This document shows, piece by piece, positions 15,718-17,274 of a DNA stretch of 64,000 bases. Numbering within the stretch: position 1 is the first letter of the stretch; each line of letters begins with the position of its first letter. Made by a program: the position numbers and the translations under genes. Source of the DNA: Jiangella muralis (lineage in GTDB: Bacteria > Actinomycetota > Actinomycetes > Jiangellales > Jiangellaceae); NCBI RefSeq assembly GCF_001270745.1, contig NZ_LFXL01000025.1, forward strand, positions 62,001 through 126,000, given 5' to 3'. The notes under the pieces are model-generated. The model was given only the letters and a program-made list of their open reading frames with translations, ran no database searches and had not been told where the DNA came from.

Positions 15718-17274
15718 ATGCCCGACCTGACGAGACACCGGCTGGTCACCGCGGTGGTGGGCCTGGCCGACCGGCCTGGCCGACCGGCCCGGATCCGCGG
15801 ACCGCGGCGGTGGACGGACCTGTTCGTCCCGCTGGCGGTGATCAGCTTCCTGCTGGTGCTGGTGTCCGGTGTGCTGCTGGCGTTCTGGTTCGAGCCGTCC
15901 ATGCGGCCGGTCGTCTACGCCGGCGACTACGCGCCGCTGCGCGGCGTGACCATGTCCGAGGCGTACGCGTCGACGGTGCGCATCTCGATGGAGGTGCCGG
16001 GCGGGCTGCTGGTGCGCCAGGTGCACCACTGGGCGTCGCTGGTGTTCATCGCGGCGCTGTCGGCGCACCTGCTGCGGGTGTTCCTGGCCGGCGCGTTCCG
16101 CGGCTACCGGCGCCTCATCTGGCTGGTCCTGCTGGCGCTGCTGGTGCTGAGCATCGCCGAGGCGTACCTCGGCCACTCGCTGCCGGACGACCTGCAGTCC
16201 GGCACCGGCCTGCGGGTCACCGAGGGGTACCTGCTGGCCACGCCGGTCGTGGGGACCTGGATGTCGTGGCTGCTGTTCGGGAACGAGTTCCCCGGCGACC
16301 AGATCATCGGCCGGCTGAACACGGTGCATGTGTGGGTGCTGCCGGTGCTGATCGTGGGCCTGGGCGCCGCCTGGGCGCTGCTGGCGTACCGGCGGTGGCG
16401 CGCCGCGGCGCCGCCGCCCGACGGCGACCCGCCGCGCCGGTACGCCGTCCGCATGGGCGGGCTGGCGCTGATGGTCTCCGGCGCGATCGTCGCGATGTCG
16501 GCGGTCGTGCAGGTCAACCCGGTCTGGCTGTGGGGGCCGTTCGACGCCGCGGCGGCTCCGGCCGGCAGCCGTCCGCCGTGGTACCTCGGGTTCCTCGACG
16601 GCGCCGTGCGGCTGATGCCGCCGTGGGAGCTGGACGTGTTCGGCTACACGCTGTCGCTGAGCGTGCTCCTCCCCGTCATGGTGCTGCCGGGGGTGCTGAT
16701 GGGGACGCTCGCGCTGTACCCGTGGTTCGAGCAGTGGGCCACCGGCGACCGCCGCGACCCCGACGTCCTCGACCGGCCCCGCGACCTGCCGGTGCGCACC
16801 GCACTGGTGGCCGCGTTCGTCACGTTCTACGTGGTGCTGTGGATCGCCGGCGCCACCGACGTCGTCGCCACGCTGCTGCACGTCCCGCTCGGCCCGCTGG
16901 TCCGGTTCCTGCAGGTGGCCGTGGTCGTCGCGCCGCCGCTGGCGTTCTGGGCGACGAAACGGATCCTCCTGGGGCTGCGGCTGCGCGACCTGGACGAGCT
17001 GCGGCACGGGCATGCGACCGGCATCGTCGTCGTCAGCCCCGGTGGCGGGTTCAGCGAGCTGCACCGGCCGCTGACGTCGCGGGAGGCGGAGCGGCGGGCG
17101 CCGCGCGAGGCGCTGGTGCCGGCCGGGGCCGTCGCGGCCTCCGACGAACACGGCGTCCCCAACCCGCACTACCGCACCGAACGGCCCCGGGCGCTCGCGT
17201 CGCGGTTCTACTTCGCCGATCTTCCCGGCAACCGACCCGTCTCCGGTGACGTCCAAGTGAAGGAGCATGGTTGA
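15718..17274 (+). CDS. Cytochrome b (QcrB-like) paralogue lacking key cofactor residues
   Basis: An integral membrane protein of 518 residues with the helix pattern of cytochrome b of the bc complex. It aligns along its whole length with QcrB at 33343-34986. Helix B keeps both haem ligands (His103, His117). Helix D keeps His204, but the partner expected 15 residues later is Trp219; QcrB has His209 and His224. The quinol-site PDWY of QcrB is PPWY here (286-289), so the acidic residue is lost. There is no Rieske or cytochrome c gene beside it; two lipoprotein serpins follow 21 bases later. It is probably not a full quinol oxidase subunit. The ATG has GAGGAG upstream. Confidence 0.88.
   Translation: MPDLTRHRLVTAVVGLADRPGRPARIRGPRRWTDLFVPLAVISFLLVLVSGVLLAFWFEPSMRPVVYAGDYAPLRGVTMSEAYASTVRISMEVPGGLLVRQVHHWASLVFIAALSAHLLRVFLAGAFRGYRRLIWLVLLALLVLSIAEAYLGHSLPDDLQSGTGLRVTEGYLLATPVVGTWMSWLLFGNEFPGDQIIGRLNTVHVWVLPVLIVGLGAAWALLAYRRWRAAAPPPDGDPPRRYAVRMGGLALMVSGAIVAMSAVVQVNPVWLWGPFDAAAAPAGSRPPWYLGFLDGAVRLMPPWELDVFGYTLSLSVLLPVMVLPGVLMGTLALYPWFEQWATGDRRDPDVLDRPRDLPVRTALVAAFVTFYVVLWIAGATDVVATLLHVPLGPLVRFLQVAVVVAPPLAFWATKRILLGLRLRDLDELRHGHATGIVVVSPGGGFSELHRPLTSREAERRAPREALVPAGAVAASDEHGVPNPHYRTERPRALASRFYFADLPGNRPVSGDVQVKEHG

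Follow-up and report, generated by a model that had tools for sequence, protein, structure and literature searches.

A QcrB-derived cytochrome b paralogue of Jiangellaceae, probably with haem bL only, behind an ECF41-type promoter

What is left for a cytochrome b to do once it has lost a haem ligand and the acid of its quinol site? The question is raised by an open reading frame of Jiangella muralis (15718-17274, forward strand) in the 64,000-nt stretch of DNA analysed here, hereafter the window. Its 518-residue product shares 49% identity, across 504 residues, with the QcrB encoded in the same window (33343-34986). An earlier note on this DNA had described the reading frame, three retained haem-ligand histidines, W219 at the position of QcrB H224 and PPWY in place of PDWY, and we confirmed each of these points. 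The features of the locus are the following.

15659-15685, forward strand: ECF41-type promoter, TGTCACA-n16-GGTC, ending 32 nt upstream of the start codon (consensus of PMC3426412; conservation)
15706-15711, forward strand: putative ribosome-binding site GAGGAG (sequence; all 12 Jiangella have GGAG)
15718-17274, forward strand: 518-aa cytochrome b paralogue derived from QcrB, probably with haem bL alone (sequence comparison, profiles, model)
15829-15831, forward strand: codon 38, Pro in place of the QcrB Qi-site Glu, C. glutamicum E38 (alignment; PMC8795186)
16024-16026, forward strand: codon 103, His, haem bL ligand (QcrB H108), invariant in the paralogues (alignment)
16066-16068, forward strand: codon 117, His, former haem bH ligand (QcrB H122), lost in 5 of 16 paralogues (alignment)
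16129-16131, forward strand: codon 138, Leu in place of the invariant bH-side Gly of QcrB helix C, G143 (alignment)
16174-16176, forward strand: codon 153, His in place of a QcrB Tyr at Qo, C. glutamicum Y153 (alignment; PMC8795186)
16327-16329, forward strand: codon 204, His, haem bL ligand (QcrB H209), invariant in the paralogues (alignment)
16372-16374, forward strand: codon 219, Trp in place of the QcrB haem bH ligand H224 (alignment)
16573-16584, forward strand: PPWY in place of QcrB PDWY (alignment; fixed in 16 of 16 paralogues)
17296-18573, forward strand: serpin 1, probable lipoprotein, presumably co-transcribed with the cytochrome b gene (PF00079)
18583-19818, forward strand: serpin 2, probable lipoprotein, presumably co-transcribed (PF00079)

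Family, distribution and haem pockets

The product matched the Pfam models PF00033 and PF13631 above their cut-offs (66.9 and 133.1 bits), and the window's QcrB also matches Pfam cytochrome b models. Against the NCBIfam model of actinobacterial QcrB (NF050120) it scored 488.8 bits, below the curated cut-off of 500 bits, compared with 752.9 for the window's QcrB. All 36 QcrB compared have four haem-ligand histidines, the acid of the Qo motif and the Qi-site Glu; the paralogue has three of the histidines and neither acidic residue. Its gene is also not encoded with QcrC and QcrA, the window's qcr operon lying ~14 kb downstream, and the stretches around the 15 other paralogues contained no qcrA or qcrC match. 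The predicted fold was QcrB-like (Z 47.6, 2.3 Å over 435 residues to 7q21_B), a likeness that is partly built in because the 62-row alignment behind the AlphaFold model (pLDDT 85) included QcrB rows; 15 paralogues alone gave a pLDDT of only 51.

Among 60 relatives searched, orthologues with 67-94% identity were found in all 11 other Jiangella genomes, so the gene is neither a chance reading frame nor a sequencing error. Relatives with 56-59% identity occurred in four genomes of the same family (G016, G018, G020 and G021). An intact paralogue is thus present in 16 of 22 Jiangellaceae genomes, the window's own counted, and in all 12 Jiangella; it was not seen in G012, G015, G017 and G019, or in G013 and G014, both of which are incomplete. 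We scanned 84,980 species genomes with the patterns [RQ]PPWY[LF]GF and Q[VI]NPVWLW, which PPWY in other contexts would escape, and obtained 74 confirmed loci. PPWY was found in 10, all among the same 16 genomes (Jiangella, Haloactinopolyspora, Phytoactinopolyspora and the MAG DX1.bin79). In a 56-row tree, made by a quick method with no bootstrap and with the G015 labels swapped (Q_G015 is the orphan, O_G015o the operon copy), the 16 paralogues formed one clade (SH-aLRT 100), sister to the orphan cytochrome b of the Propionibacteriales MAG L088 (SH-aLRT 98), and the two together joined the Jiangellaceae QcrB set.

In cytochrome b of R. capsulatus, H198 is a ligand of haem bL and H212 of haem bH (PMC4330944). 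Combined with the histidine spacing in QcrB, 14 in helix B and 15 in helix D, these assignments place QcrB H108 and H209 at bL and H122 and H224 at bH. Read in this way, the ligand missing from the window's paralogue, the second histidine of helix D, is that of haem bH. H108 and H209 (QcrB numbers) were present in all 16 paralogues. Position 122 was His in 11, Gln in 4 and Tyr in 1, and position 224 was Trp in 6, Arg in 2, Gln in 2, and Val, Tyr, Ala, Gly, Leu or His in one each; mapping on the tree required at least nine state changes at 224 and none at 108 or 209. The earlier note had proposed conservation as the check on both substitutions, and only the Pro of PPWY (16/16) proved conserved. 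The Trp was carried by 6 of 16 paralogues, one of the others having His, and we rejected it as a conserved new ligand.

Glycines in helices A and C let haem faces pack, and two such pairs, each 14 residues apart, were invariant in the 36 QcrB (G42/G56 in helix A and G143/G157 in helix C); a literature search on haem-packing glycines found nothing. The bL-side G56 and G157 were kept in 16 of 16 paralogues. On the bH side, 12 paralogues have Leu and 4 have Val at G143, and 8 retain G42. The sole paralogue with four histidines, G021 of Phytoactinopolyspora alkaliphila, has Val at 143 and the PPWY motif, which suggests that bH is probably absent from all 16. Orthologues with both histidine and acid restored, named by the earlier note as evidence against its reading, were thus found by half: G021 has the histidine without the acid. 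As for another histidine serving as ligand, no conserved substitute was seen at or near helix-D position 219.

Quinone sites, outer-face residues and selection

The Qi-site Glu38 position was Pro in 10 paralogues, His in 5, Gln in 1 and Glu in none of the 16. At Qo, the position of C. glutamicum Tyr153, which hydrogen-bonds stigmatellin (PMC8795186), was His in 14 and Asn in 2, and that of Asp295 (C. glutamicum number) was Pro in all 16. The proton-exit residues on the Rieske side, D307, R311 and D394 (QcrB numbers; D302, R306 and D387 in C. glutamicum), were present in 16 of 16. The earlier note had taken the PEWY/PDWY acid to be needed for quinol oxidation. This does not strictly hold, since the R. 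capsulatus E295V variant is functional, and the same source cites organisms that lack a Qo acid (PMC10583091). As the acid is not strictly essential and the Qo Tyr is replaced as well, the site may be re-tuned and not dead. A further menaquinone of the C. glutamicum complex, Qc, lies 12.6 Å from haem bL (PMC8795186), so that quinone contact with bL needs neither bH nor Qi. Judged from these residues, the paralogue may handle quinone at the outer face.

The reading frame was open in all 16 paralogues. Median pairwise dN/dS (NG86) was 0.44 for the paralogue (66 pairs, 12 Jiangella) versus 0.15 for QcrB (55 pairs from 11 Jiangella, G010 left out), a threefold difference that points to partly relaxed constraint. 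Across 15 species with both genes, and with helix bounds set by eye on bc1 topology, mean pairwise identity of the paralogue was 0.79 in the P-side (outer) loops versus 0.505 in the N-side (inner) loops (p 4.6e-11), and QcrB of the same species displayed no such difference (0.891 versus 0.910). Within the helices, the P-side and N-side halves of the paralogue did not differ significantly in conservation (0.723 versus 0.677, p 0.25). The paralogue consensus coincided with that of QcrB at 87 of 139 P-loop sites versus 28 of 64 N-loop sites.

The sister copy L088 has PDWY and four histidines, with Tyr already at the Qi Glu position and His for Tyr158. A series from L088 (two-haem, PDWY) through the four-His PPWY copy of G021 to the three- and two-His copies outlines a possible order of loss, in which Qi Glu and Qo Tyr would have gone first, the Asp->Pro change and Gly143 next, and the bH ligands piecemeal thereafter.

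The ECF41-type promoter and the neighbouring genes

The published ECF41 promoter consensus is TGTCACA-n16+-1-CGTC (PMC3426412). All 12 Jiangella loci carried a promoter of this type, with G, A or T preceding GTC; CATGTCACA and GTC were invariant in the 12 and the spacer between them was variable. In the 12 Jiangella stretches (the window and L033-L043, 469,392 strand-bases), TGTCACA-N16/17-GTC occurred 11 times, every time before the paralogue, and L039 has one extra spacer base. In each of the four other genomes the paralogue is divergent from a sigma factor gene that passed the TIGR02957 and SigJ cut-offs, and each of these sigma genes is preceded by a TGTCACA site of its own. Toward the cytochrome b gene the -35 element reads TGTCACA in L045, TGTCACG in L047 and CGTCACA in L044 and L046, the latter two read by eye. 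At the level of sequence, the ECF41-type promoter is a feature common to Jiangella and non-Jiangella paralogue loci.

The window's genome as a whole contained 15 sites of the promoter pattern versus 9 for the reversed control, a mild excess, so that single sites elsewhere mean little; three of its ECF41-like genes have such sites beside them. Of the 12 Jiangella, 8 have a sigma gene with 68-78% identity to that of L045. The best relative in the window's genome was only 55% identical, which counts against a strict one-to-one link. On the sequence evidence we regard ECF41-type control of the paralogue as very likely.

Among 114 cytochrome b loci, in a survey whose rows include repeats of single places and short stretches, the motif was found in 0 of 90 with qcrA near versus 16 of 24 without. 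The idea that orphan QcrB copies generally have an ECF41 site was rejected, as among 14 further copies from other genomes only that of G015 has one; 10 of the 13 copies without the site also had no qcrA nearby.

Three Phytoactinopolyspora-type second QcrB copies with four histidines and PDWY (G020, L049 7886-9541; G019, L051 7885-9486; G015, L064/L198) are independent, lie outside a qcr operon and have TGTCACA...CGTC upstream; those of G019 and G020 sit, by eye, within a cobalamin-biosynthesis cluster. Geodermatophilus sabuli (L126 5944-7296) has a further copy with no qcrA seen, TGTCACA...CGTC at -168 and ECF41-like sigma matches within ~5 kb. G019, a genome without the PPWY paralogue, contains a second, divergent qcrC-qcrA-qcrB set (L048 6242-9065).

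Downstream of the window's paralogue, the two serpin genes matched PF00079 with E-values of 3.5e-90 and 7.5e-90. The intergenic gaps are 21 nt (cytochrome b to serpin 1) and 9 nt (serpin 1 to serpin 2), and no terminator-like site was found between cytochrome b and serpin 1. By eye, both serpins start with a lipobox-like N-terminus, and the region of their reactive loop contains an Arg. The order in Jiangella is cytochrome b, one or more co-directional serpins, then a histidine kinase-response regulator (HK-RR) pair; in G006 the contig breaks off within serpin 1, and two serpins and HK-RR are found at the start of a different contig. The serpins, which the earlier note had called operon partners, are neighbours throughout Jiangella, and the four non-Jiangella loci had no serpin match. 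Serpin linkage is thus confined to Jiangella, and sister genera show an empty site. Serpins as ancestral partners were rejected, those of sister genomes (L147-L149) lying away from cytochrome b and without such a promoter. In G001 the second serpin beside the paralogue is reduced to fragments (L040 11201-11810). Serpin matches were found in 3 of 14 control genomes, and each Jiangella genome has 3-6 of them, some being split pieces of one gene.

SRPBCC genes adjoin HK-RR in 9 of 10 sister genomes with no cytochrome b or serpin match between them, and HK-RR was rejected as a dedicated partner on this ground; by its position in these genomes, the two-component system is an older resident of the site. 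On the other side of the paralogue lie a divergent gene of SRPBCC type and, next to it, a gene that matched no Pfam model (window 14698-15569, reverse strand); both keep this place in Jiangella and are found beside HK-RR in sister genera.

No redox partner genes are encoded near the paralogue. Near-full-length QcrA matches numbered one in each of the 16 paralogue genomes and one in 20 of 22 family genomes; G019, without the paralogue, has a second, divergent match. A dedicated second Rieske protein was rejected on the strength of the single QcrA per paralogue genome.

A possible role and known systems

These observations support the earlier note's suggestion of a new function and of a one-haem protein, which we regard as probable, an intact copy being maintained in 16 genomes; the paralogue appears to be a respiratory component put to a different use and not a gene in decay. 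The explanation that we prefer, and to which we give slightly better than an even chance, is an outer-face, bL-only, ECF41-controlled one-electron cytochrome b. A QcrB duplicate of complex III would have become a stand-alone membrane cytochrome with haem bL only, near the outer (P) face, keeping the bL pocket and outer-face loops and losing the bH pocket, the Qi site and the inner-face loops. With these lost, electrons could not cross the membrane, and we hold it to be highly probable from the sequence that the protein contains bL alone and can run no Q cycle. An ECF41/SigJ-type sigma factor would turn the gene on, in Jiangella together with lipoprotein serpins. In the weakest step of the proposal, single electrons would move between menaquinone in a Qo pocket re-tuned by the Tyr->His/Asn and Asp->Pro changes and a partner at the outer face. 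Because the Rieske-side proton-exit residues are kept, the likeliest partner would be QcrA, the genome's only full-length Rieske protein; this partnership, with a quinone- or Rieske-linked one-electron reaction, we put forward tentatively. In a response to envelope or oxidative stress, the protein might buffer electrons or act as a quinone-redox enzyme, a role modelled on the one proposed for redox enzymes in ECF41 regulons. More speculatively still, the bL-only protein could join the outer-face subunits of complex III and turn a Q-cycle enzyme into an outer-face-only electron device under envelope stress. The sequence is equally compatible with a protein that works by itself, one that works with QcrA and one that forms an alternative protomer.

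As such a protomer, the paralogue would pair with QcrB or with itself around QcrA and QcrC under stress, which would make complex III asymmetric or throttle it, with a reduced number of working Qi sites. The kept fold, the consensus shared with QcrB in the P-loops, the single QcrA of all 16 genomes and the description of bH-knockout bc1 and asymmetric cytochrome b fusions (PMC4330944) speak in its favour. However, the inner faces have drifted, and a subunit missing both Qo acid and bH offers no cross-monomer route of its own, so we consider this alternative unlikely. A role without catalytic turnover, as a haem-bound sensor, a chaperone or an assembly factor serving the envelope or complex III, would suit the lost transmembrane electron path and neighbours that are a regulator and serpins and not redox genes; it becomes improbable given that the kept bL pocket and proton-exit residues suggest redox use and that HK-RR occupies the same place in sister genomes without cytochrome b. 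That the gene is a decaying duplicate heading to a pseudogene could be read from its raised dN/dS and drifting bH residues, but the 16 open frames, the fixed bL residues and PPWY, the strong P-loop constraint and the promoter elements fixed either side of a variable spacer make this very improbable. Least credible of all is that two b haems are still bound with another residue ligating bH, for although G021 has four histidines and H117 is kept in 11 of 16, no conserved substitute ligand is found at or near helix-D position 219 and G143 is Leu or Val throughout.

Little is known of what ECF41/SigJ sigma factors do, and the preferred reading, a bL-only outer-face cytochrome under ECF41 control, would give them one output. 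Few membrane proteins are as conserved as cytochrome b; a natural, maintained family that has kept one haem pocket and one face and lost the other provides a way to test what each part of complex III does. A literature search, mostly at title level, found no report of such a PPWY or one-haem paralogue, and in the one paper found on ECF41 with cytochrome b the cytochrome b-like gene is under other sigma factors. The ECF41-type promoter before the paralogue is an observation new to this analysis.

Compared with known systems, the paralogue resembles orphan QcrB copies of other actinobacteria and Phytoactinopolyspora in being a duplicate outside the qcr operon, but PDWY is retained in those copies, as are all four ligands in the three of Phytoactinopolyspora type. 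With the ECF41 regulons of PMC3426412 it shares the promoter type and a SigJ/TIGR02957-type sigma gene divergent from its presumed target; the targets described there are carboxymuconolactone decarboxylases, oxidoreductases and epimerases, and the word 'cytochrome' is absent from the main text. Actinobacterial QcrB (C. glutamicum 7q21, M. smegmatis 6adq) has the same fold, length, C-terminal extension, bL ligands and glycines, outer loops and Rieske-side proton-exit residues. In contrast, the paralogue is changed at the bH ligand, the bH-side glycine, the Qi Glu and the Qo Asp and Tyr, and its operon contains an ECF41-type promoter and neither QcrC nor QcrA. The R. capsulatus H212N bH-knockout bc1 (PMC4330944) likewise loses the second histidine of helix D with bL remaining; it is, however, a laboratory mutant of the full complex, whereas the paralogue is a natural, separate gene with further Qo and Qi changes, and, if the proposal is true, a bL-only device that would be a physiological counterpart of that knockout.
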